Below are positions 443 through 23,969 of a DNA stretch of 26,489 nucleotides, piece by piece. The notes under the pieces were generated by a model. That model was not told where the DNA came from, did not search any database, and saw only the letters and a list, made by a program, of their open reading frames with translations. The stretch is taken from positions 1 to 26,489 of IMG/VR virus record IMGVR_UViG_3300013131_004061; one strand, 5' to 3'. This stretch comes from a virus. Position 1 is the stretch's first letter, and each line of letters begins with the position of its first letter. The translations under genes and the position numbers were made by a program.

Positions 443-709
443 ATGGAAGATTTAAAAACATTCGAAGAATTTAACGACAATTCTCTAAATGAAGCAAACG
501 ATTTTAGACCTGAAAACGTAAGAACACGTGAAAAAATAGACAATCTACATATTAAATCTAAAGATGCAATGTCAAAGGCAAGAGAGTTTGACGACTCAGG
601 TGATATGCTTAAATCTAAAATTCAACAATTAACGTCTGAGAGTTTAAGACTTAAGGCGCGTGCTGCAGAAATTGATTGGAGAATTAAACAACTGAAAGAG
701 AAATTATAA
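443..709 (+). CDS. Small coiled-coil protein with T4-like capsid-targeting-type N-terminus
   Basis: This 88-residue protein starts with MEDLKTFEEF, a variant of the tag found on about ten other proteins here. The tag is followed by SLNEA, which fits the (L/I)-x-E / small-residue cleavage motif of the T4 prohead protease gp21. Residues 25-88 are charged and heptad-like, with regularly spaced Leu, Ile and Ala, so they are probably one long helix or coiled coil. The length and composition resemble T4 internal or prohead-core proteins, but I have no family match. Its stop codon overlaps the ATG of the next gene (TAATG), which suggests translational coupling. A packaged core protein is the inference; the sequence directly shows only the tag, the LNE site and the helical composition. 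Confidence 0.72.
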   Translation: MEDLKTFEEFNDNSLNEANDFRPENVRTREKIDNLHIKSKDAMSKAREFDDSGDMLKSKIQQLTSESLRLKARAAEIDWRIKQLKEKL

Positions 710-1830
710 TGAAAAAATTATATTCAATTGAAGAACATAATGATATTGTAACTATAAATAAAAGGGCATCTGAAATAAATTCTCTTTTTAATGGTTTACT
801 TGAAAAAGAATATTCTGAAAGCTTTGCAGTATATGAGTTTTTGAATTTAAGAAGTATTTTCAGGTCAATATTTATTAATCCTGGTATTAAAAGGCAAATT
901 AGAAAGCTTGTCGAAGAACTTGTTAAAATAAGGGTAGAAATTGCTAAAATTTCACTTGAATATGAAACAGACGAGTTTGAAGATGAATATGACTATGATT
1001 ATGATTATGGTAGAAAGAAGAGATCTAAAAGAAATTACAAACAAACGCGCGAAACTAGTCCTAGCGAATTAAAGAAATCTACACTTGAAGACCAGTTGCA
1101 AGCAATAGAAGCTAAAATGGAATTACTTGCAGGTGAAGATGAAAAGATGCAAAAATTCTTAGAACTTCAAAAGATTCAGGCAAAATTAAACGCGAACGAG
1201 TTAATCTATAAATTAGCTTCAGATGAGCAACAAAAGATTCTAAATAAATATAATAAAAAGGTAAAAAAAGATATCAATGGTTTAGCAGACGACTTACATG
1301 AATCATTGAGTTTAAATTTTACACATATTTTATTCGAAGAGTTTTATCATCTAACTGAAGGTAAACTTATAAATGAAAATAATAATATTAATATGAAATA
1401 TATCAAAACGTTTGAATCATTTTTAAATGAGAAAAAGGAATATTTTATAGAAGTTTCTGTAAGGGATGCGCGTAAAGCGCTTGACCATCTGGATGATATG
1501 CATAGAAGAAAATACAAAACAGATGGTTCGAATTACTATATATTTAAAGACGAAGATGAGGCTTATGATGTTCTTCAGCACTTTAAAGATATGGGTATTG
1601 AAGTTGAAGACCATAATATAAGTGAATCTTTAAATGAAGGTACATTTGAAGAAGATGAAATAGCAACATATGATGACCCTAAAGGTGAAGACGGTTTAAC
1701 ACATATAGTAAAAAGAAAAAAAGGCTATTACGGTTATAATGATAACTTTGATTTCTATGCAAAAGACAAAAATGAACTTAAAGGAAAGTTAAAATCTTGG
1801 GGTTACAAACTAATTGCAGGTAAAATTTAA
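709..1830 (+). CDS. Two-module protein: helical N-terminal module fused to a tagged C-terminal module
   Basis: The 373-residue frame has two unlike parts. Residues 1-228 are highly charged and helical, with an acidic Asp/Tyr-rich stretch near 90-100 followed by a Lys/Arg patch. Near 215-222 is a possible gp21-type site (LTEG). Residue 229 is a Met opening MKYIKTFESFLNEKK, the capsid-targeting-like tag that is normally at an N-terminus. The remaining 145 residues include an ISESLNEG segment, another LxE site. The tag in mid-protein suggests fusion of two once separate genes, or a gene with a second, internal start at 1393. The upstream start (ATG at 709) overlaps the preceding stop. I do not recognise either module by function. 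Frame confidence is high; whether one or two proteins are made is open. Confidence 0.75.
   Translation: MKKLYSIEEHNDIVTINKRASEINSLFNGLLEKEYSESFAVYEFLNLRSIFRSIFINPGIKRQIRKLVEELVKIRVEIAKISLEYETDEFEDEYDYDYDYGRKKRSKRNYKQTRETSPSELKKSTLEDQLQAIEAKMELLAGEDEKMQKFLELQKIQAKLNANELIYKLASDEQQKILNKYNKKVKKDINGLADDLHESLSLNFTHILFEEFYHLTEGKLINENNNINMKYIKTFESFLNEKKEYFIEVSVRDARKALDHLDDMHRRKYKTDGSNYYIFKDEDEAYDVLQHFKDMGIEVEDHNISESLNEGTFEEDEIATYDDPKGEDGLTHIVKRKKGYYGYNDNFDFYAKDKNELKGKLKSWGYKLIAGKI
1393..1830 (+). other. Candidate internal in-frame start producing a tagged 145-residue isoform
   Basis: The ATG at 1393 is in frame with the gene that starts at 709 and is preceded by the A/T-rich run aataatattaat, the same kind of leader seen at other starts here. 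The codons after it closely match, at nucleotide level, the 5' ends of the tagged genes at 4370, 5232, 10004, 11010 and 11677. Initiation here would give a short protein with the tag at its true N-terminus. The sequence cannot tell whether this start is used. Confidence 0.45.
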
Positions 1831-1831
1831 T

Positions 1832-3649
1832 ATGTATAAATTAAAAAATTTAATATCATTTGTAAATGAGAAATGGATGAGAGTTTCTCCTTTACAGGGT
1901 GAATTTATTGAAAGATACGGTGTTGCATTAAATAAAATACATCTTTCTGAAACAGATGATGGTTATTTAGATGTCAATATGATTATAGTTAGACCTGCTG
2001 ATAGAGATAAGGGTATAGCTACTGAAATAATGGAAAGAATTGTAGAATATTGTGATAAGAATAATAAAATAGCTTATCTTACACCTACAGATGAATTTGG
2101 AAGTAATAAGAAAAAATTGAAAAAGTTCTATCAGCGATTTGGTTTCGTTTCTAATTCAGGTTTAAATAAAGATTTTAGAGTAAAAGATACTATGATAAGA
2201 TATCCTAATACTAATGAATCTTATTTAGTAACGGAACTTGAATTTATTGATAAAGAGGCATTTAACACTTATAGTAGTGAACATGATATCAGAGATACTA
2301 CTACTGTAACAATAGCAGGTAAAAAAACTACTGCAGGAGAAGCAAAGAAAGAATCAAAACCAGCTGTCTCAAAAATAAAAGGTAAGTCTTTATCGCCTAA
2401 TGGTACACTTTCTGAAAAACATAAAATGAAGATTGAGAAAATTCAGGACGGTGTAAAGATAGATGGTATCGAATACAAGAAACAGCCTGAAATTACAGAT
2501 GAACGTCTTTTAGAAATATATAAAGGCGACAAGAAGAAGGCAGAAATGGCAAGAAAGGCTTTAACAAAACATAATATGCTTATGGAAAAAGTTGAAAAGG
2601 TTCTTGTTAAAGGCGGTGAACTTGAGACATTATCTGCTTTTCCAGACACTCCTCCTACTACACCAGAAAACAGAGACAAATTAAAGAAAGGTACTGCTGA
2701 AAATTTAAGTAAAGCAATTACTGAGCAATTAGGCGAAGATAACCTTACAGAAGGACAAAAGAATATAGTAAAAGCACTTAATGATATTAAAAACTCTTCA
2801 GATGAAAAAGATTTTGAAGAGAAATTAATGGATATTACAAATAAAATATTCGAGGACCCTAGTCTTTCAACAGGTTCTGCAGACATGGTAGAAACTATAT
2901 CATATATGAGAGAGTTAAATAGAGGTAATGCTGCATATTTACCTGCTTCACCTAACTTTCCGTTGGGAGATGTAATATCTGTATCTTCTTCGAGCATTGA
3001 CCCTGAAAAAGATTCACCAGAAGAAATGGCCGATAAAATCAAAGCTATTACTTTAGGTATTGAAAATAGGTCAATTAAAAAAGATGCAGGTGGTGCTTCA
3101 GCATCACATGGTAAAGTTGGACTAACAACATATAAAGATTATAAAGACAAGAAAGGCAACGTCTTAGTATCTGCAGATGATATTAAAAAAGATTTAGATA
3201 AACTTACAAATAAAGACGGTTTATATAAAAAGATATTCAGTGAAGATAATGAAGATGTAAATGCTGATATAAAAGAATTAGCTCAAAAATACGGTGTAGC
3301 AATCAATAGTAGAATTTTTGGTGAGAAAAAGAAAAAAGCTATTGAGTCAGCTGTTGATAAAATTAAAAAAGCTAATCCTAAACTTGCAAAACCAGATTTA
3401 AGAAAGAAGTTAGATGCTTATTATAATATGGGTGCAGTATTTGAAGTAGTTTATAATAGACAAATGGACACGCAGTTATTTACAAACGAGGTTTGGTCTT
3501 ATAACGATAAGACAAAGAAAGTAGACGTTGACAAAACAGATGGTATAAATAAAGTATCTAAAGTTAAGTTCGAATTCAATATAGGTTGGACAGGAAAAGG
3601 AAAGCCTGCAAAAATAGTTCCTACAAGATTTAAAAACACCGTAATATAA
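1832..3649 (+). CDS. GNAT-domain N-terminus on a long tagged phage protein
   Basis: I choose ATG 1832 (605 residues) over an in-frame TTG at 1814, because the ATG gives MYKLKNLISFVNEKW, a tag-like start with VNE. Residues about 25-125 look like a GNAT acetyltransferase: a beta strand (LDVNMIIVRP), then the acetyl-CoA loop R-D-K-G-I-A-T (58-64), a helix, and the C-terminal KKFYQRFGF typical of the fold. From 130 onward the protein is Lys/Glu/Asp-rich, with no family I recognise; the C-terminal third (NIGWTGKGKPAKIVPTRF) looks globular. A phage GNAT could modify host proteins or a drug-like substrate, but the substrate is unknown. The gene sits between other tagged genes and its stop shares bases with the next ATG. 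The tag suggests head packaging. Confidence 0.75.
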   Translation: MYKLKNLISFVNEKWMRVSPLQGEFIERYGVALNKIHLSETDDGYLDVNMIIVRPADRDKGIATEIMERIVEYCDKNNKIAYLTPTDEFGSNKKKLKKFYQRFGFVSNSGLNKDFRVKDTMIRYPNTNESYLVTELEFIDKEAFNTYSSEHDIRDTTTVTIAGKKTTAGEAKKESKPAVSKIKGKSLSPNGTLSEKHKMKIEKIQDGVKIDGIEYKKQPEITDERLLEIYKGDKKKAEMARKALTKHNMLMEKVEKVLVKGGELETLSAFPDTPPTTPENRDKLKKGTAENLSKAITEQLGEDNLTEGQKNIVKALNDIKNSSDEKDFEEKLMDITNKIFEDPSLSTGSADMVETISYMRELNRGNAAYLPASPNFPLGDVISVSSSSIDPEKDSPEEMADKIKAITLGIENRSIKKDAGGASASHGKVGLTTYKDYKDKKGNVLVSADDIKKDLDKLTNKDGLYKKIFSEDNEDVNADIKELAQKYGVAINSRIFGEKKKKAIESAVDKIKKANPKLAKPDLRKKLDAYYNMGAVFEVVYNRQMDTQLFTNEVWSYNDKTKKVDVDKTDGINKVSKVKFEFNIGWTGKGKPAKIVPTRFKNTVI

Positions 3650-4186: not shown

Positions 4187-4927
4187 ATGAATGAAAAGAA
4201 CTCTCCATATAAGCTTAAAACTCTTTTGAAATATAAAGACGAATTTAAAAAAGGCGAAAATATACCGTTTGGTGTAGAGTCAAGTCTAATTGCACAAGGT
4301 ATGATTCCTAGGCAAGGTGGACCAGATAAAGGTAAGAAAGTCAAATCACCTGAATATAAAAATGAAAATATGAAATACGTAAAGACATTTGAACAATTCG
4401 TCAATGAAAAGAAAATAGAAGACGAGGGAAGAGGAAAAGAAAGTGAAACGCCTAAAAGCAAAGACGTTAAAGGTGAGTATCTTACAGGTCCTACGGCTAA
4501 AGACCGTGAATTAATGAAGAAGGAAATCGACAAACATGCAAAGAAAGACGAAGATGACCCATCTGCATATGTAAAATGGCCTGCTGACTATAAAGGTGGT
4601 GACACTTCAGGTGAACCACATGATACCAAAAAGAGTCCTGCAACAATAGCATATCATAAAAAATACGGTAAAAAGAATGAGTCTTTATTATTAGAAGACG
4701 ATAGAATTGAAACAGCATTAAAAAACAAAGAGGAAGAAACTGGTATACCTTATAAAATATTAAAACAGGTACATGATAGAGGAATGGCCGCATGGAGAAC
4801 AGGTCATAAACCAGGTGTACCACAAGCTGCATGGGCAATGGGCAGAGTAAATTCATTTATTACCGGAGAAGGTGGAGCAAGAGATGCTGACGAAGATTTA
4901 TGGAAAGAATATAAAGGTAAAGAATAA
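4187..4927 (+). CDS. Modular phage protein with internal tag and a conserved C-terminal domain
   Basis: I start at ATG 4187, two bases after the preceding TAA; a GTG at 4169 overlaps the previous gene more. The 246 residues have three parts. Residues 1-61 form a short module (IPFGVESSLIAQGMIPR, then GKKVKSPEYK) seen as a free small protein in other phages. Residue 62 is a Met opening MKYVKTFEQFVNEKK, the tag. Residues about 170-246 match a conserved phage domain I recall as DUF5824-like: TGIPYKILKQVHDRGMAAWR, then GVPQAAWAMGRVNSFITG, ending with an acidic D-E-D-L-W. As in the gene at 709, the tag lies inside the frame, so the frame is either a fusion or a dual-start gene. Its function is not established; a packaged virion protein is the inference. 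Confidence 0.72.
   Translation: MNEKNSPYKLKTLLKYKDEFKKGENIPFGVESSLIAQGMIPRQGGPDKGKKVKSPEYKNENMKYVKTFEQFVNEKKIEDEGRGKESETPKSKDVKGEYLTGPTAKDRELMKKEIDKHAKKDEDDPSAYVKWPADYKGGDTSGEPHDTKKSPATIAYHKKYGKKNESLLLEDDRIETALKNKEEETGIPYKILKQVHDRGMAAWRTGHKPGVPQAAWAMGRVNSFITGEGGARDADEDLWKEYKGKE
4370..4927 (+). other. Candidate internal in-frame start producing a tagged 185-residue isoform
   Basis: The ATG at 4370 follows aaaaatgaaaat and is in frame with the gene at 4187. The nucleotides atgaaatacgtaaagacat are nearly the same as those at 5232 and 11010, where the tag is at a gene start. Starting here would separate the short upstream module (61 residues) from the tagged DUF5824-like protein. Which start is used cannot be decided from sequence. 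Confidence 0.45.
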
Positions 4928-5864: not shown

Positions 5865-6725
5865 ATGTTTGAATATATTGAAAGGCTAAAGTACGATATA
5901 ATATGCTTTTTCTGGAACCTTTATCTGAAGGCTCAACTGAGGTTTAAGCTTAAATTCAAAAGAAAAGAATTATATTATTTTCACCGTAAAACTAATTCAA
6001 TAAAAGGGTGGCGTCTATTATTTTCAGATGAATTTAACGAAGAATCACTTAATTATAAAAAATGGAGGAGTGATGCATATTACGGTTTAAGGTTTCATCC
6101 GGGCCCAATTATAAATGATTATCTTCCGCCTAGAGAATATTATTCAGAAGATTGTCTAGAGTTTACAGGGCATTCTATTAAATTAAAGGCAATAGAAAAA
6201 CCTATCAGTGTTAAATATGAAAATCAATATTGGACAATACCTTATCAAGTAGGTCAGATAGACAGTTCAATAGGATTATCACAGAAGCATGGTTATTTTG
6301 AAATAAAAGCAATTATACCTAATAGCAAAGGTATGTGGCCTGCTTTTTGGTTGGCATCTACTGAAGCATGGCCTCCTGAAATAGATGTATTCGAAATTTA
6401 TACAAGTAAGAAAAACGGGTTTAGTTCATTTGAAAGTAATATACATCAGATAAATAAAAAGGGTAAACACAAAATGAATGCAATCAAACATAGGACGTTT
6501 AACCTTTCAAAAAGACCTTATGTATATGGATGTGAATGGGATGAGAAATGGATTAAATTTTATTTTCAAGGCCAACTTGTCAGAGTTTCTAAAACACCTG
6601 ATAGCTTTAAACATCCTATGCATATTATATTAAATAATTCAATTGACCCTAATTATTTAGAAGAAATAGAATTCCCTAACTATTTTGAAATATTTTATGT
6701 AAGGGCATATAAAAAAATAAATTAA
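5865..6725 (+). CDS. Glycoside hydrolase family 16-type enzyme
   Basis: The 286-residue protein has the beta-jelly-roll layout of GH16. LLFSDEFNEESLNYKKW (about 51-67) opens the domain, and HGYFEIKAIIPNSKGMWPAFW (about 142-162) is the typical strand before the active site. The catalytic signature E-I-D-V-F-E at 172-177 supplies the nucleophile (Glu172), assisting Asp174 and acid/base (Glu177). GH16 enzymes cut beta-1,3/1,4-glucans, agarose, carrageenan or related marine galactans; the substrate here cannot be told. There is no clear signal peptide, though residues 10-25 are hydrophobic and aromatic. The gene sits in a tight run ahead of the IMPDH-like and endolysin genes, so a role in degrading capsule or envelope polysaccharide at entry or exit is plausible. 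The fold and motif are secure; the role is inferred. Confidence 0.85.
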   Translation: MFEYIERLKYDIICFFWNLYLKAQLRFKLKFKRKELYYFHRKTNSIKGWRLLFSDEFNEESLNYKKWRSDAYYGLRFHPGPIINDYLPPREYYSEDCLEFTGHSIKLKAIEKPISVKYENQYWTIPYQVGQIDSSIGLSQKHGYFEIKAIIPNSKGMWPAFWLASTEAWPPEIDVFEIYTSKKNGFSSFESNIHQINKKGKHKMNAIKHRTFNLSKRPYVYGCEWDEKWIKFYFQGQLVRVSKTPDSFKHPMHIILNNSIDPNYLEEIEFPNYFEIFYVRAYKKIN

Positions 6726-7801: not shown

Positions 7802-8689
7802 ATGTTACTTAAAATAGGAAGTACAGGAGAAAATGTTAAAATACTCCAGAGGTTTTTAAAGCTAAAAGATGATGGTAGCTTTGGACCTAAAACAGCAGCT
7901 GCAGTCAAGGCTTGGCAAAAATCTAAGGGTTTATTAGATGATGGTATAGTTGGACCTAAAACTTGGGTTACAATGGGTTTAGATAAACTTGTTACTACTG
8001 ATAACTCTGAAAATGTTACAGACAACGGTAAATTAATATTTGAACAATATCTTTTACCTAAAAGTGAATATTTAGTAGGTCCTACTAATAAAGAATATTT
8101 ATTTTTACATCACACTGCAGGTGGTCACAATCCTTATCAAGTCGTTGATATGTGGGGTAGAGATACAAGAGGTAAAATTGCAACTGAATTCGTATTAGGA
8201 GGTCAATCTGCATCAAAAGGTGATAAAAAATACGATGGTAAATTAATACAGTGTATGCCAACAGGTTCATATGCTTGGCATTTAGGTGACAATGGTTCAC
8301 AGTACATGCACTCACATTCAGTTGGTATCGAAGTATGTAATTTTGGTTATGTTGTTAATGGTAAAACTTATGCAAAAACACCTGTCGATTCATCACAAAT
8401 TGTTACTTTACCTAAAGCATTCAGAGGTCATATAACATGGCATAGATATTCTGATAAGCAAATCGAAGTGCTAAAAGATTGGATTCTTTTTATAGCAAAC
8501 AGAGATGATATCGATGTTAGAAAAGGTCTACCAAAGTGGGTACACGAAAAAGGAGCATCTGCTTTTGAATTTAATACAGATGCGTATTACGGAAGAGTCA
8601 AAGGCCTTTTAACTCACACAAATACAAGAAAAGACAAAGTAGATATGTTTCCGCAGCCAGAACTATTAGATATGTTAATGAGTTTATAA
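7802..8689 (+). CDS. Endolysin: peptidoglycan-binding domain plus N-acetylmuramoyl-L-alanine amidase
   Basis: Residues 1-60 are a PG_binding_1-type domain: KIGSTGENVKILQRFL, DDGSFGPKTAAAVKAWQ and DDGIVGPKTW. Residues about 95-290 are an Amidase_2 domain, with the zinc ligand in FLHHTAGG (His103/104), a core SVGIEVCNFG that contains the catalytic-region Glu177, and the C-terminal ligand motif around His272 and Asp281. The enzyme cuts the bond between MurNAc and the stem peptide at lysis. It has no signal peptide, so it would need a holin to reach the wall; none is obvious next to it. The binding domain at the N-terminus is normal for phages of Gram-negative hosts. The gene is 16 bp after the IMPDH-like gene. 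Confidence 0.92.
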   Translation: MLLKIGSTGENVKILQRFLKLKDDGSFGPKTAAAVKAWQKSKGLLDDGIVGPKTWVTMGLDKLVTTDNSENVTDNGKLIFEQYLLPKSEYLVGPTNKEYLFLHHTAGGHNPYQVVDMWGRDTRGKIATEFVLGGQSASKGDKKYDGKLIQCMPTGSYAWHLGDNGSQYMHSHSVGIEVCNFGYVVNGKTYAKTPVDSSQIVTLPKAFRGHITWHRYSDKQIEVLKDWILFIANRDDIDVRKGLPKWVHEKGASAFEFNTDAYYGRVKGLLTHTNTRKDKVDMFPQPELLDMLMSL

Positions 8690-8727: not shown

Positions 8728-9396
8728 ATGCGTATGATACCTTACTTTTATAAAATAACAAACTTGATTAATGGTAAATATTATTATGGGTCGACAATAC
8801 AGGAAGATTTAATTAAATATGGTGGCTCTAATTTATTATTAAAACTATCATATAAAAAATACGGGAAAAATAATTTCAAATTCGAAAAATTGAAATTTTT
8901 TGAATCTAGATTTGAAGCATTTGAATTTGAAGAAAGATTCTTAAGATTATATGATATGAGAAATAATAGGATGTCATATAATATGAGTAATAATGGTAAC
9001 GGAGGAGATACTATATCACAGAATCCTAATAGAGATAAAATAATTAAAAAACTAGGAAGAAAGGGAAGAATTAGTAATAGAAAAGGAATAATAATGGAAG
9101 AGGAGCAGAAAGTAAAAATATCAAAAAGCCTTAAGGAATCGTATAAGAACGGTAGAGCTAAGATGGTGAATAAAGGGTCTAAACTTTCTTCTGAACATAA
9201 GGCAAAAATATCAGAAGCATGTAAAGGAAAACGATCAAACGAGAAAAATGGGATGTGGTGTAAAGGTAAGCCCATATCTATCAATGGAGTTGAATATCAG
9301 TCAATAGCTGAAGCTGCTAGAAAGACAGGTCTTCACATTAAAACTATTACTTATCGTATTAATAATAAAAACGAAAAAGAATGGAAACGAATTTGA
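8728..9396 (+). CDS. Free-standing GIY-YIG homing endonuclease (SegA-like)
   Basis: The 222-residue protein has the GIY-YIG core at its N-terminus: FYKITNLINGKYYYGST (residues 6-22), then LLLKLSYKKYGKNNFKFE and an acidic FEFEERF helix. The C-terminal half carries NUMOD3-like repeats (EEEQKVKISKSLKESYKNG and SSEHKAKISEACKGK), followed by a NUMOD1-like helix-turn-helix (YQSIAEAARKTGLHIKTI) for DNA binding. This is the usual layout of phage SegA/F-TevI relatives that copy themselves into related genomes. ATG 8734 is an alternative start two codons in. It is flanked by short gaps and is not inside another gene, so it is free-standing rather than intron-borne. It is a mobile gene inserted between the endolysin and a set of small genes. 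Confidence 0.9.
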   Translation: MRMIPYFYKITNLINGKYYYGSTIQEDLIKYGGSNLLLKLSYKKYGKNNFKFEKLKFFESRFEAFEFEERFLRLYDMRNNRMSYNMSNNGNGGDTISQNPNRDKIIKKLGRKGRISNRKGIIMEEEQKVKISKSLKESYKNGRAKMVNKGSKLSSEHKAKISEACKGKRSNEKNGMWCKGKPISINGVEYQSIAEAARKTGLHIKTITYRINNKNEKEWKRI

Positions 9397-10003: not shown

Positions 10004-10303
10004 GTGAAATATATAAAGACATTTGAAGAATATCTTATTGAATCTGAAATTATAAAGGAGGCAGAAATTATCGACCCCGATTTAGAAGATATAAGATACT
10101 TCAGAGGTAGTATACTTCAGTTCAAAGATTTCTGGGAAAGAAAAATGGGCGTACCGTTTAATCCTCACGGTGAAGTAGAATATAAATATCCTAAAGAAAG
10201 AAGTGAAGACGATAGTTCACTCCCTTATCAGGATTTTGTTAATGGTAAAAGTAGTCTAGTTAAACATAATATGGAAACAAGGCGAAGAGGATTAATCAAA
10301 TAA
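10004..10303 (+). CDS. Tagged small protein with capsid-targeting-type N-terminus
   Basis: The start is GTG at 10004, chosen because it gives MKYIKTFEEYLIESE, one of the clearest copies of the tag. The following IIKEAEII holds another (I)-K-E/A gp21-type site. The remaining 80 residues are acidic then basic: DLEDIRYFRGSILQFKDFW, then PHGEVEYKYPKE, ending with KHNMETRRRGLIK. No domain is recognised. By analogy with T4 internal proteins, residues about 1-20 would be cut off in the maturing head, leaving an injected peptide of about 9 kDa. A perfect hairpin sits just upstream. Confidence 0.68.
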   Translation: MKYIKTFEEYLIESEIIKEAEIIDPDLEDIRYFRGSILQFKDFWERKMGVPFNPHGEVEYKYPKERSEDDSSLPYQDFVNGKSSLVKHNMETRRRGLIK

Positions 10304-10328: not shown

Positions 10329-10574
10329 GTGAAAAGAATAGTAAGAAAAATCCAGAATCGAAGACCGAGCCTTCCGAACGTATTCTTAGTTCTAGGAACG
10401 TTCTTTCTACCGTTGGGTTACGACGCGGCATTCGCAATTCTATACGATTATATGAAACTTCACTTCAAAAATCCGTATTGGCCTACAACAAGTGTGTTCT
10501 ATTGTATATCGGGCCTATTTTTTATATTGCATATATTATTTTCAAAACGTTCTAAACAAAATACAGAGAAATGA
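10329..10574 (+). CDS. Small two-helix membrane protein
   Basis: The 81-residue protein has two hydrophobic segments, about residues 17-40 (NVFLVLGTFFLPLGYDAAF and onward) and 53-70 (TTSVFYCISGLFFILHILF), joined by a short loop and followed by a basic tail. The GYDAAFA-x-Y...W-x-T-T-x-F-Y pattern matches a small phage membrane protein I recall from T4-like genomes. The start in this frame is GTG 10329. An ATG at 10310 in another frame opens a second, overlapping 81-residue frame, which I reject as coding (see the finding on this start). The function is unknown. A holin-like role is possible given the nearby endolysin, but nothing in the sequence proves it. Confidence 0.62.
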   Translation: MKRIVRKIQNRRPSLPNVFLVLGTFFLPLGYDAAFAILYDYMKLHFKNPYWPTTSVFYCISGLFFILHILFSKRSKQNTEK

Positions 10575-10891
10575 ATAAACAATACATGGAAAGTTTTTCT
10601 GACTTCAGAAAATCTGCTCATATAAATGAAGCAGAGAAAGAAGCTGATGACAATCAGAAAATAAAAGACTTAATGGAAAAAGCAAAAGAAGCTAAACAGA
10701 AAGCGCAAGAAGCTAAGTCTAAATATGATGAACTTTCGACTAAGAAAGAAAATGAAGATGAGGCTGATACTGTTTTGCTTCAATACAAAAAATTCAGAGC
10801 AGAAGCTGAATTACATGCTGCCAATGCTAAACTTTTAAGAAAAGGTTTAAGAGAAGAAGGCGAAGAAGGCGAAAAAGAAGAAAAAAAATAA
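10571..10891 (+). CDS. Ala/Lys/Glu-rich coiled-coil protein with tag-like N-terminus
   Basis: The 106-residue protein starts MNKQYMESFSDFRKSAHINEA. It has the S-F-x-D-F pattern of the tag, followed by INE/A, a good gp21-type site at residues 19-21. Residues 22-95 are almost entirely Ala, Lys, Glu and Leu in heptad-like order (KAKEAKQKAQEAKSKYDEL), so they probably form a long coiled coil. The tail is polyacidic and polybasic (EEGEKEEKK). This is the composition of prohead scaffold or internal core proteins. The ATG overlaps the stop of the membrane protein gene. I infer a scaffold or packaged protein; no family match is claimed. Confidence 0.7.
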   Translation: MNKQYMESFSDFRKSAHINEAEKEADDNQKIKDLMEKAKEAKQKAQEAKSKYDELSTKKENEDEADTVLLQYKKFRAEAELHAANAKLLRKGLREEGEEGEKEEKK

Positions 10892-10897
10892 TAAGAG

Positions 10898-11023
10898 GTG
10901 GCTAAAGCTAGAAAAGAAGGTAAACCTAAAAGAAATAGAGTAAATCTCTTAAAAAATCTCAGAAGAATAGAAAAGAATACTGAGATACTTAAAAGAATTA
11001 AAATTGAAAATGAAATACGTTAA
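10898..11023 (+). CDS. Tiny basic protein, 41 residues
   Basis: A GTG at 10898 opens a 41-codon frame that fills the gap between two tagged genes and overlaps the next start at 11010 by 14 bases. The product is strongly basic: MAKARKEGKPKRNRVNLLKN, then a leucine/isoleucine-bearing charged helix (EKNTEILKRIKIENEIR). It may bind nucleic acid or another protein. The GTG start and the small size make it less certain than its neighbours. In favour are the close packing of genes here and the absence of stops. No family is recognised. Confidence 0.45.
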   Translation: MAKARKEGKPKRNRVNLLKNLRRIEKNTEILKRIKIENEIR

Positions 11024-11354
11024 AACATTCGAGGATTTCATAGACGATGAAAGACTAAATAAAAGTGTTATATCGGAAGCTGAGGCATATGATGAGCCTG
11101 CAGACCCGCCGACAACTTCATTTAGACAGGAAGACTGGTCTGCAAAAGATAAATTGCAACATATTTCTAATTTTTCTGATGAGCTTACGCTTTTCATTGA
11201 AGATGGTGAGCAGTTAGAAGACTCTCAGCTGAAAATTATTCAAAGAATGTATGATGACATTCTTACATTAAGAAGACAGATAGAAGGAAGAGAAAAAATC
11301 AAAAGACAGGAAGAAGAAGATAGATATTCAAACATAGATAATCCTAATTTATAA
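11010..11354 (+). CDS. Tagged small acidic protein
   Basis: I start at ATG 11010, not the TTG two codons earlier, because it gives MKYVKTFEDFIDDERLNKS, an exact-type tag. The tag is followed by VISEAEAYDEP, containing ISE/A, a gp21-type site at about residues 21-23. The mature part (about 90 residues) is acidic and helical, ending with a charged helix (YDDILTLRRQIEGREKIKRQ). The nucleotides after the start match those of the genes at 5232 and 11677, which suggests that the tag spreads by duplication of its coding segment. No function is recognised. It lies in the second cluster of tagged genes. Confidence 0.7.
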   Translation: MKYVKTFEDFIDDERLNKSVISEAEAYDEPADPPTTSFRQEDWSAKDKLQHISNFSDELTLFIEDGEQLEDSQLKIIQRMYDDILTLRRQIEGREKIKRQEEEDRYSNIDNPNL

Positions 11355-11490: not shown

Positions 11491-11680
11491 AATACAAATT
11501 ACTTCTAGGTCAAGGTCACCTAAGGGTAAAATATTTTCTACAGGTGAAATATATGAATATTATTCCATAGTCGAAAGAAGAAGTGCATGCGGTTGTGCAA
11601 AAGGTTACACTCTATATAAACTTTATGAAACAGATTACGGTTTAGTACCTACAACCAAAGCAATAATTATTAAAGAATGA
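11462..11680 (+). CDS. Small protein with Cys-x-Cys motif, 72 residues
   Basis: The protein is basic at the start (MPIARKPKGKIQITSRSRS) and then beta-rich, with repeated strands separated by Gly and Lys. The centre, RRSACGCAKGYTLYKLYETD, holds the only two cysteines (C-G-C). The overall shape suggests a small beta-barrel, but two cysteines are too few for a classical zinc ribbon. It overlaps the previous small frame by 29 bases, and its TGA overlaps the next ATG (ATGA), so it is probably co-translated with the 2H phosphoesterase. No family is recognised with confidence. Confidence 0.62.
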   Translation: MPIARKPKGKIQITSRSRSPKGKIFSTGEIYEYYSIVERRSACGCAKGYTLYKLYETDYGLVPTTKAIIIKE

Positions 11681-12294
11681 AATACATTAAAACATTTGAA
11701 GAGTATTCAGAAGAATATTCATTTCTTTATAAGAAAATAAACGAAAAGAAGGGCGATTCATACGATTACGGATGTGTAATGCTTTATTTTGAATTTCCTA
11801 GTTTAAAGGGTATACAAAGTGATATTACCCAAGATGATTTATATACTGAGGAAAACGACAGAAGTTATGGGTTTGAAGATGAACCGCATGTAACTCTTCT
11901 ATATGGTTTACATAAGGAAGTTACAATAGAAGATGTTCTTGAAAAAATAAAGCCATATAGATACGACGACCTGTTATTAACTAATATTTCTGCCTTTGAA
12001 AATCAAAAATATGATGTTCTTAAATTTAACGTTGTTTATCCTACAAGAGGTGGTTCTTATTTAAAACAAGCGGACAAAGCTTTAACTGAACTTCCTCATA
12101 CCACTGATTTCCCAGATTATCATGCTCATTCTACTGTTGCATATTTAAAACCAGGTAAAGCTAAAAAATACATAGAACAATTTAAAGGTACTGAACATAT
12201 TGTTAAGCCTAGTAAAATAGTTTATAGTATGGCATCAGGTGAAAAAATTGTCAAAGAAATAAACAATTCTAAATATATTTCATATAATCAATAA
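11677..12294 (+). CDS. 2H phosphoesterase (2'-5' RNA ligase-like) carrying a capsid-targeting-type tag
   Basis: The 205-residue protein has the two H-x-T signatures of the 2H phosphoesterase superfamily, about 80 residues apart: PHVTLLYGL (His71, Thr73) and AHSTVAYLKPG (His151, Thr153). Around them is the duplicated beta-alpha-beta layout. This superfamily cuts 2',5' or 3',5' phosphodiesters and cyclic phosphates in RNA and cyclic oligonucleotides; T4 Acb1 is a member that destroys CBASS signals. Uniquely among known examples I recall, this one starts with MKYIKTFEEYSEEYS, the tag, and has INE/K at about 21-23. That points to packaging and injection with the DNA. The start is an ATGA overlap with the previous gene. 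The superfamily is secure; substrate and packaging are inferred. Confidence 0.83.
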   Translation: MKYIKTFEEYSEEYSFLYKKINEKKGDSYDYGCVMLYFEFPSLKGIQSDITQDDLYTEENDRSYGFEDEPHVTLLYGLHKEVTIEDVLEKIKPYRYDDLLLTNISAFENQKYDVLKFNVVYPTRGGSYLKQADKALTELPHTTDFPDYHAHSTVAYLKPGKAKKYIEQFKGTEHIVKPSKIVYSMASGEKIVKEINNSKYISYNQ

Positions 12295-23006: not shown

Positions 23007-23969
23007 ATGTTTAAAGTTAGAGGTCTAGAAGATTTTGTAAATGAAAATATATCAAAGTCTGATTTAGATTCAATAGAAGTTTATGCAGATAGTCTTTTTA
23101 AGAAAATAGGCATAGATGTAGAATTTACACGTCATTTTTTAGAAAGATTAAATGACGCTAGAAATAAAAAGGCTATTACTGCTGCAGAAATAGAAGGAAT
23201 ATTTAAAAGAACTTATATTAAACATGGTAAACAGATACTTAAACTAGGCGATGATGCAGAAGCTGTAATAAAAGATATGCGAAGTGATATAAATGTGCCA
23301 TTCCATCTTTCATATGACAGATCGACAGGCATGTTTGATATGATTATGAAAACAGTAATGAGGAAAAAATCGTTTCTTACTAGTAATGTTACACTTGATA
23401 TTAACTCACATAATATATTTGAAGCAAGCGACAGAACTCTATATAATCAAATGAGGCCTTTTTTTGAAAAAACGCCTGAATACGTTTTTAGAGAATTGTA
23501 TTTTGTAAAAGACGGTTTCTTCAAAGAGGAGTTCGCAAAAATGATAGCGGACAAAGAAGACGATGAAGAAATAGAAATGTCTTTTATGGAATGGATTGAC
23601 TTAAAGTGGAAGAAAAAAGTAATAGATGTAAATATCAAAGACTTTAATTCCAATACACAGAGGTCGATGAAGTCAAGAGGTATGGGTACAAATTCAATTA
23701 AAGAAATACCTTCTGACGAAATAAGAAATTCGACACAGAGAGAAATCGCATCAAACACTGAACCGGGTAAAAACGAACCTGTTATTCTACTTAAAACATC
23801 AAGAGGTTATGATTTAATAGAAGGTTGGCATAGAACTATGTCTATTTTAAGTTTAGGTACAGATGGTACACAAAATTATGAAGACTGGGATAAAGTAAAA
23901 TTAAATGCTTGGATAGCAACAGGTGAATATGTTGATGAAATTTCTGATAATTTTGGTACCTTTCATTAA
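23007..23969 (+). CDS. Tagged protein with phage 'FTRHFLERLNDARN' domain and C-terminal ParB/sulfiredoxin-like domain
   Basis: The 320-residue protein begins MFKVRGLEDFVNENISK, a tag-like start with VNE. Residues about 24-125 hold a phage domain seen in T4-like genomes: LFKKIGIDVEFTRHFLERLN, NKKAITAAEIEGIFKRTY, DAEAVIKDMRSDINVPFHLS, and TVMRKKSF. Residues about 240-320 look like a ParB/Srx-type domain: NTEPGKNEPVILLKTSRGYD, then LIEGWHRTMSIL with the Gly-x-His-Arg-Thr motif at 273-277, the nucleotide-binding signature of that superfamily. ParB-like domains cut nucleotides or bind them; ATP/CTP use here is unknown. The tag suggests head packaging. Intergenic palindromes lie upstream. Confidence 0.75.
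   Translation: MFKVRGLEDFVNENISKSDLDSIEVYADSLFKKIGIDVEFTRHFLERLNDARNKKAITAAEIEGIFKRTYIKHGKQILKLGDDAEAVIKDMRSDINVPFHLSYDRSTGMFDMIMKTVMRKKSFLTSNVTLDINSHNIFEASDRTLYNQMRPFFEKTPEYVFRELYFVKDGFFKEEFAKMIADKEDDEEIEMSFMEWIDLKWKKKVIDVNIKDFNSNTQRSMKSRGMGTNSIKEIPSDEIRNSTQREIASNTEPGKNEPVILLKTSRGYDLIEGWHRTMSILSLGTDGTQNYEDWDKVKLNAWIATGEYVDEISDNFGTFH

Follow-up and report, generated by a model that had tools for sequence, protein, structure and literature searches.

A 2H phosphodiesterase with a T4-type capsid-targeting-like tag: a candidate head-packaged enzyme against nucleotide immune signals

The closest described counterparts of the locus examined here are found in phage T4 and among the LigT-like phosphodiesterases of viruses. 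The T4 internal proteins IPI, IPII and IPIII are small proteins of the phage head with an N-terminal signal, MKT[FY]xEF...[IL]xE, that is removed at its L/I-x-E motif; IPI begins MKTFKEFTSTTTPVSTITE, and both IPII and IPIII begin MKTYQEFIAE. In IPIII ten N-terminal residues are enough for targeting to the head, and the protease gp21 cuts after L/I-X-E (PMC9026906). Each of the proteins Ip1-3 inhibits a GmrSD restriction system (PMC12373910), which sets a precedent for an injected anti-immune role. Phage T4 and avian poxviruses have LigT-like phosphodiesterases that are reported to hydrolyse cGAMP (PMC11410667). Acb1, the anti-CBASS phosphodiesterase of T4, does not accept rings larger than three bases (PMC9117128). 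Its gene, acb1 (57B), adjoins ipI, the gene of an injected internal protein (L088, T4 73591-74410). To our knowledge, a head-packaging signal is absent from T4 Acb1 and from the other phage enzymes that break down immune nucleotides, which must therefore be made in time. Neither a capsid-tagged 2H enzyme nor an Acb1-type enzyme with a packaging signal is described in the literature searched, outside which most subscription journals lie.

The window, by which we mean the whole 26.5 kb stretch analysed, is a virus record without further contigs. No tRNA was found in it, a scan for promoters and terminators gave nothing above chance, and head genes are absent from its 26 kb, so that protease and scaffold were seen only in relatives. 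The gene of interest (11677..12294, plus strand, as are all features given below for the window) encodes a 2H phosphoesterase of 205 amino acids, defined by its open reading frame, by family matches and by an ATGA overlap with the stop of the upstream gene that supports the start codon. Residues 1-23 (11677..11745), MKYIKTFEEYSEEYSFLYKKINE, form a capsid-targeting-like propeptide that ends in I21-N-E23, with a predicted prohead-protease cut site after Glu23. From the position of the last [LIVMF]xE in the family, residues 24-30 (KKGDSYD, 11746..11766) would be a linker between the predicted cut and the core, which spans residues 31-195 (11767..12261) in the AlphaFold2 model and by Foldseek. The core is ordered in that model, with pLDDT mostly above 90, and the tag is mostly below 50. 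The catalytic motifs are H71-V-T73 (11887..11895) and H151-S-T153 (12127..12135). A preliminary description had proposed a 2H phosphoesterase with both H-x-T motifs and a tag with an INE motif; the reading frame proved exact, and both motifs and the tag, which is disordered in the model, are present.

A tblastn search against phages matched the protein to metagenomic huge phages of 484-642 kb, at 34-41% identity, and to the cultured Maribacter phages Molly and Colly. The protein of Molly and Colly, named "2'-5' RNA ligase superfamily protein", is the nearest annotated relative from cultured phages, with 39% identity in the core, but has no N-terminal tag. A scan of viral contigs with the single sequence gave zero relatives; a profile from a seven-sequence alignment, built from the huge-phage matches, identified at least 423 viral stretches that encode relatives, and 80 of these were read. 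Run on contigs from 84,980 genomes of bacteria and archaea, the same profile matched at three places only, which makes the family essentially viral. Two of the three were assigned to Bacteroidetes/Bacteroidales bins, and from these assignments Bacteroidota are the likely hosts of phages that carry the family. Conservation was counted over 60 non-redundant aligned members, the window included. Both histidines and both threonines of the H-x-T motifs are invariant, the full set being G65, E67, H71, T73, L75, G77, S105, F107, V114, K116, Y148, H151, T153, Y156 and S184. One relative (L002:5986-7302, LR745206) joins the 2H domain and an RNase_T-type 3'-5' exonuclease in a single protein, with an SINE protease-like site between them; this fusion could be a polyprotein that is processed inside the head, or an enzyme that linearises and then degrades.

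The 2H superfamily is marked by two H-x-T/S motifs and a duplicated beta fold; here the motifs are invariant and the fold matches, and sequence and model together give the protein a 2H fold with an intact active site. Profile comparisons place it nearest to Acb1. It falls in phrog_755 (E 1.5e-6), the PHROG that also holds T4 57B/Acb1 (gp57B, 228 bits), and a profile search against PDB sequences was led by FBB1 Acb1 (E 3.5e-6) and a second Acb1 entry; with a larger alignment Acb1 entries made up the top three of four matches, with weaker scores than before. The Pfam models for Acb1 (PF23474) and 2_5_RNA_ligase2 give the window protein 20.7 and 20.5 bits, each under a cut-off of 27; some relatives exceed the Acb1 cut-off (28.4 and 27.5 bits). 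For the RNA 2',3'-cyclic phosphodiesterase equivalog ThpR/LigT (TIGR02258) the score is 16.1 bits against a cut-off of 65.7. By hhalign the probability is 86% to Acb1 and 2% to E. coli ThpR, the latter a single sequence, so that the two values are not like-for-like. The preliminary description had called for a structural comparison with Acb1 and with 2'-5' RNA ligase-like enzymes. In Foldseek searches with two independent family models the Burkholderia phage BCSR5 phosphodiesterase, annotated as Acb1 in the PDB, came first, followed by Usb1, poxvirus cGAMP phosphodiesterase, FBB1 Acb1, LigT and viral 2'-5' phosphodiesterases; Usb1 and LigT are nearly equal to Acb1, and at TM-scores of about 0.5-0.6 for all of them the Acb1-, Usb1- and LigT-type folds are inseparable.

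The active site shares with T4 Acb1 the HxT/HxT tetrad and aromatic residues at two base-stacking positions, W74 and F107 of T4 corresponding to F107 and F145 of the window in an hhalign alignment that covers this half only. F107 is invariant, and the F145 position is F or Y in 59 of the 60 members. In contrast, E141 and W147 of the C-terminal lid, which are invariant in T4-type Acb1, have no conserved counterpart among the 60, six of which have a C-terminal W at scattered columns. The family also differs from Acb1 in its own invariants (G65, E67, F107, K116, Y148, Y156 and S184), and T4 Acb1 has no cleavable tag. The poxvirus cGAMP phosphodiesterase, which is LigT-like, shares the fold and the catalytic histidines (Foldseek E ~1e-5, TM 0.5-0.6), but belongs to a eukaryotic virus, is only 13-15% identical, has an N-terminal lid and has no phage head signal. 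Usb1 and LigT (ThpR) have the 2H fold at about 10-15% identity, and the window protein lies far under the ThpR equivalog cut-off. Two further candidates were set aside: a PADLOC match to AriA (E 0.03), which has a weak score, spans the tag and the N-terminal half and is attributed to chance, and the metallophosphoesterase of PMC12287305, which is unrelated to the 2H enzyme. The substrate class is probably a nucleotide immune signal; that it is a cyclic di- or trinucleotide specifically falls a little short of probable.

Genes that carry the same kind of tag and neighbour the enzyme in its relatives were assigned by Pfam to Tad3, Zeta-toxin/AAA_33 kinases, GNAT acetyltransferases and DUF5824, with weak matches to ATP-grasp. 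The tagged homologue of Tad3, a Type I Thoeris inhibitor, in L034 scores 75.2 bits over a cut-off of 27, and its position beside the 2H gene in relatives favours a role in counter-immunity. Tagged Tad3 homologues were seen at L034:5226-5981 and L062:4925-5686, in the same tagged cluster as the 2H enzyme.

These neighbours also bear on a second reading, in which the packaged enzyme would work on RNA ends, as a 2',3'-cyclic phosphodiesterase or a Usb1/LigT-like processing enzyme that repairs or trims RNA early in infection, such as tRNAs cleaved by anticodon nucleases of the host. Usb1 of human and yeast, LigT and archaeal 2'-5' RNA ligase-like proteins match it closely in structure, the broad 2_5_RNA_ligase2 model matches all 60 members, one homologue is fused to the exonuclease described above, and the C-terminal VYSxPDGxK segment of the family is unlike Acb1. 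Against it are the low equivalog score and the hhalign value for ThpR, the lack of an RNA ligase or polynucleotide kinase partner beside the gene, and the tagged neighbours of recognised family, which are the Thoeris inhibitor, kinases and acetyltransferases. The RNA-repair alternative of the preliminary description is thus weakened and we consider it unlikely, yet Usb1/LigT-type folds score almost as well as Acb1.

Somewhat less likely again is a packaged enzyme that destroys cyclic oligoadenylates of type III CRISPR, cyclic ADP-ribose isomers of Thoeris or 2'-5'-linked oligonucleotides. That 2H enzymes handle varied 2'-5' and cyclic phosphodiesters, that viral 2'-5' phosphodiesterases are among the structural matches and that a tagged Thoeris inhibitor homologue adjoins the gene in relatives all speak for this wider range of signals, but T4 Acb1 excludes rings larger than three bases (PMC9117128) and, among structures whose immune substrate is known, cGAMP phosphodiesterases lie nearest.

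The anti-CBASS function first suggested for the window protein is plausible: Acb1 and cGAMP phosphodiesterases are its closest profiles and structures, but it scores below the Acb1 cut-off and has no lid residues. The other half of that suggestion, packaging, is strongly supported by comparison with the tags of relatives.

By its sequence the tag is of the T4 type. Its pattern, MKYIKTFEEY...INE over 23 residues, corresponds to MKTFKEF...ITE of T4 IPI and matches the pattern of a capsid-targeting sequence (CTS), with a length a little above the usual CTS range of 10-20 residues. Across the family the tag ends in [LIVMF]-x-E, the motif of T4-type proteases, in 57 of the 60 non-redundant members, the window included, and in 57 of the 58 members that have such a site the last one lies 4-9 residues ahead of the core; tag length ranges from about 6 to 29 residues, and the distance from cut motif to core is nearly fixed. 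For several members the start codon was picked among in-frame ATGs as the one nearest to the tag. As a baseline, 42% of ordinary genes at the same loci have an [LIVMF]xE somewhere in residues 6-25. In the model of the L062 protein the residues with pLDDT below 50 are exactly 1-13, MKHIKLFEEFVTE. Over 30 loci, the locus's own 2H tag recurs at other gene starts 101 times, against 4.7 with shuffled tags. This recurrence, the near-fixed position of the [LIVMF]xE motif and a tag of changed length in the related contig L065 together exclude a tag arisen by chance.

The window itself carries several further tags. Three small tagged proteins lie ahead of the 2H gene, at 10004..10303 ((GTG)KYIKTFEEYLIE, from the list of open reading frames, with an orthologue in L065), 10571..10891 (MNKQYMESFSDFRKSAHINE, from the same list; the L065 orthologue keeps F..F and IDE) and 11010..11354 (MKYVKTFEDFIDDERLNKSVISE, from the tag scan; MEDNKKYFMPTFEGFLNE in the L065 orthologue). 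Over most of its length L065 is collinear with the window, and its orthologues of the 10571, 11010 and 2H genes keep the tag pattern with different lengths. The tag scan also found a small protein at 443..709 (MEDLKTFEEFNDNSLNE) and a protein at 1393..1830 (MKYIKTFESFLNE), which is in frame with an open reading frame starting at 709; this frame (709-1830) contains MKYIKTFESFLNE internally, which may reflect two fused genes, a second start within the frame or a polyprotein. Pfam identified a GNAT acetyltransferase at 1832..3649 (tag MYKLKNLISFVNE), the N-terminal part of which is homologous to the tagged GNAT of L009 (BLASTP E 5e-17), and a DUF5824 protein at 4370..4927 (MKYVKTFEQFVNE, 58 bits), with tagged homologues in L066 and L011 that match from residue 1 in tblastn. 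A protein with a tag-like start, MFKVRGLEDFVNE, taken from the list of open reading frames, lies at 23007..23969. Elsewhere in the window are a glycoside hydrolase family 16 protein (5865-6725) and a peptidoglycan-binding amidase (7802-8689), both probably cell-envelope enzymes, and a gene at 8728-9396 that by eye resembles a GIY-YIG-type homing endonuclease.

Each phage lineage has its own flavour of tag, repeated on neighbouring genes; a strict tag pattern captured only the T4-like FEEF tags, and the shorter flavours were read lineage by lineage. At L085 the flavour is seen in MIRNIIKES, MQIRRILTE, MQLKKIIIE, MKIQNILLE and MKHIIKRILVE, and at L062 consecutive tagged genes surround the 2H gene, in a 256 kb record with about 19 tagged genes. 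Tags appear from the sequences to be swapped while cores persist. The junction EKQTYD[YF]GC stays constant and is preceded by MIKLLDLLK-E in L077, MESQEFKRMQELAGIIV-E in L055, MHILDNFISWKDAKKLF-E in L022 and MIKKFTEFVN-EK in L038, and L020 has no tag at the same junction (MSEKQTYDYGC). On the core tree the flavours require at least 15 changes where 4 would suffice, a count used as support only, since we assigned the labels with patterns of our own and the tree was built quickly and is weak at many of its forks. Relatives without a tag are those of the Maribacter phages, LR756508, LR756511 and a clade in L015-L031, where close relatives (L015, L016, L017, L019, L020, L025 and L031) have lost it (MSEKQTYDYGC...). 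The enzyme of this tagless clade may work only after expression. As several phages of tagless relatives have an S77 protease, packaging is not required for function everywhere.

The flavour of a lineage is shared with its own head-assembly proteins, which ties the tag to head assembly as for a capsid-targeting sequence. Genomes of 2H relatives encode homologues of gp20, gp21 and gp23. In all five region-complete genomes of the FEEF type, a tag begins the gene that separates the T4-like portal (Portal_T4, at 226 bits in the single genome where it was read) from the S77 prohead protease, with MKKLIKTFEQFIFE in G006, MKIIKTFEEFTSSLQE in G007, MKTYIKTFEQFIFE in G009, MKTIKTFEQFINSSYIKIDE in G010 and MKIFKTFESYMNSKVQE in G015; the five genes are homologous and hence non-independent. 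We take this slot to be the place of the cleaved prohead core proteins gp67 and gp68 in the T4 gene order. The role of these two core proteins in T4 is described in PMC5694885. In a genome of the KLxDLL type (G003) the tag occurs on 7 of 350 genes, three of them in the head cluster, against 1 in 1174 for an internal control. Two of these three, MKLKNLLNE and MIRLSKIVNE, lie directly between the protease and the capsid protein, and the 2H gene (MIKLKNLIKE) is among the seven. In a third flavour, all frames of a 174 kb genome (G011) contain just three RMQxLAG motifs, at the C-terminus of the scaffold (...EAFLRMQKLAGII-stop), at the start of another gene and in the 2H tag. Scaffold proteins with the start peptide of cargo genes as their end were read at L093:2247-3470 (FLRMQKLAGII) and in another record, L111 (ARMQKLAGL, near 315, minus strand). 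Genes in the scaffold position before the capsid gene of L207, L201 and L203 hold tandem YSEYLxEKVxxNI repeats, like a repeated cargo tag.

All the records of 150 kb or more that were searched encode a gp21-like S77 protease, and 19 of 20, T4 itself counted, have a gp23-like capsid gene. As a test of the tag, S77 presence was rejected as non-discriminating, since phages of tagless relatives have it too. The L/I-x-E sites in capsid propeptides, with several candidates in each, prove little. That the tag is instead some other localisation or interaction module, on an enzyme made and used after infection like T4 Acb1, is improbable, for although the tags are short and simple and wholly absent in one clade of relatives, their flavour is shared with portal-protease genes, protease-capsid genes and a scaffold C-terminus, their cut motif has a fixed position and their pattern is identical to experimentally proven T4 signals. 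Packaging of the window protein and its cleavage after Glu23 are very probable, as judged from these sequence comparisons.

In the explanation we favour on balance, a 2H phosphodiesterase is loaded into the head, injected and most likely hydrolyses a nucleotide immune signal. Residues 1-23 would serve as a capsid-targeting propeptide that binds the prohead core or scaffold, the tag imitating an element of that scaffold or core, carrying its cargo into the prohead and then being cut off by a gp21-like S77 protease after I-N-E (Glu23). The mature enzyme, of about 182 residues, would remain in the head and enter the host with the DNA, where it would hydrolyse the signal ahead of phage gene expression through 2H acid-base catalysis by H71, T73, H151 and T153; the first substrate to consider is a CBASS-type cyclic di- or trinucleotide. 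T4 carries no such enzyme among its head cargo, its internal proteins being inhibitors of GmrSD, and the relative G006 has about 19 tagged genes where T4 has three internal proteins.

A more tentative generalisation, which we think possible but would not press, is that T4-like phages, many of them jumbo, use a general code to load counter-immunity proteins for injection, the tag of each lineage being a copy of some element in its own scaffold or prohead core, such as the RMQxLAG end of the scaffold. On the same tentative footing, the payload would be swappable, with a 2H phosphodiesterase that destroys signals, a Thoeris inhibitor, acetyltransferases and kinases among its members, and immune signals would be destroyed from the first minute of infection. 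A family of immune-nucleotide-degrading enzymes with a head-packaging propeptide, spread over hundreds of environmental phages, would mean that signal-based immunity can be disabled ahead of the first phage transcript. A sequence rule, that of a tag resembling the phage's own scaffold or prohead core, would then find injected effectors in uncultured phages, and the long-standing question of the proteins that large phages inject would become directly testable.
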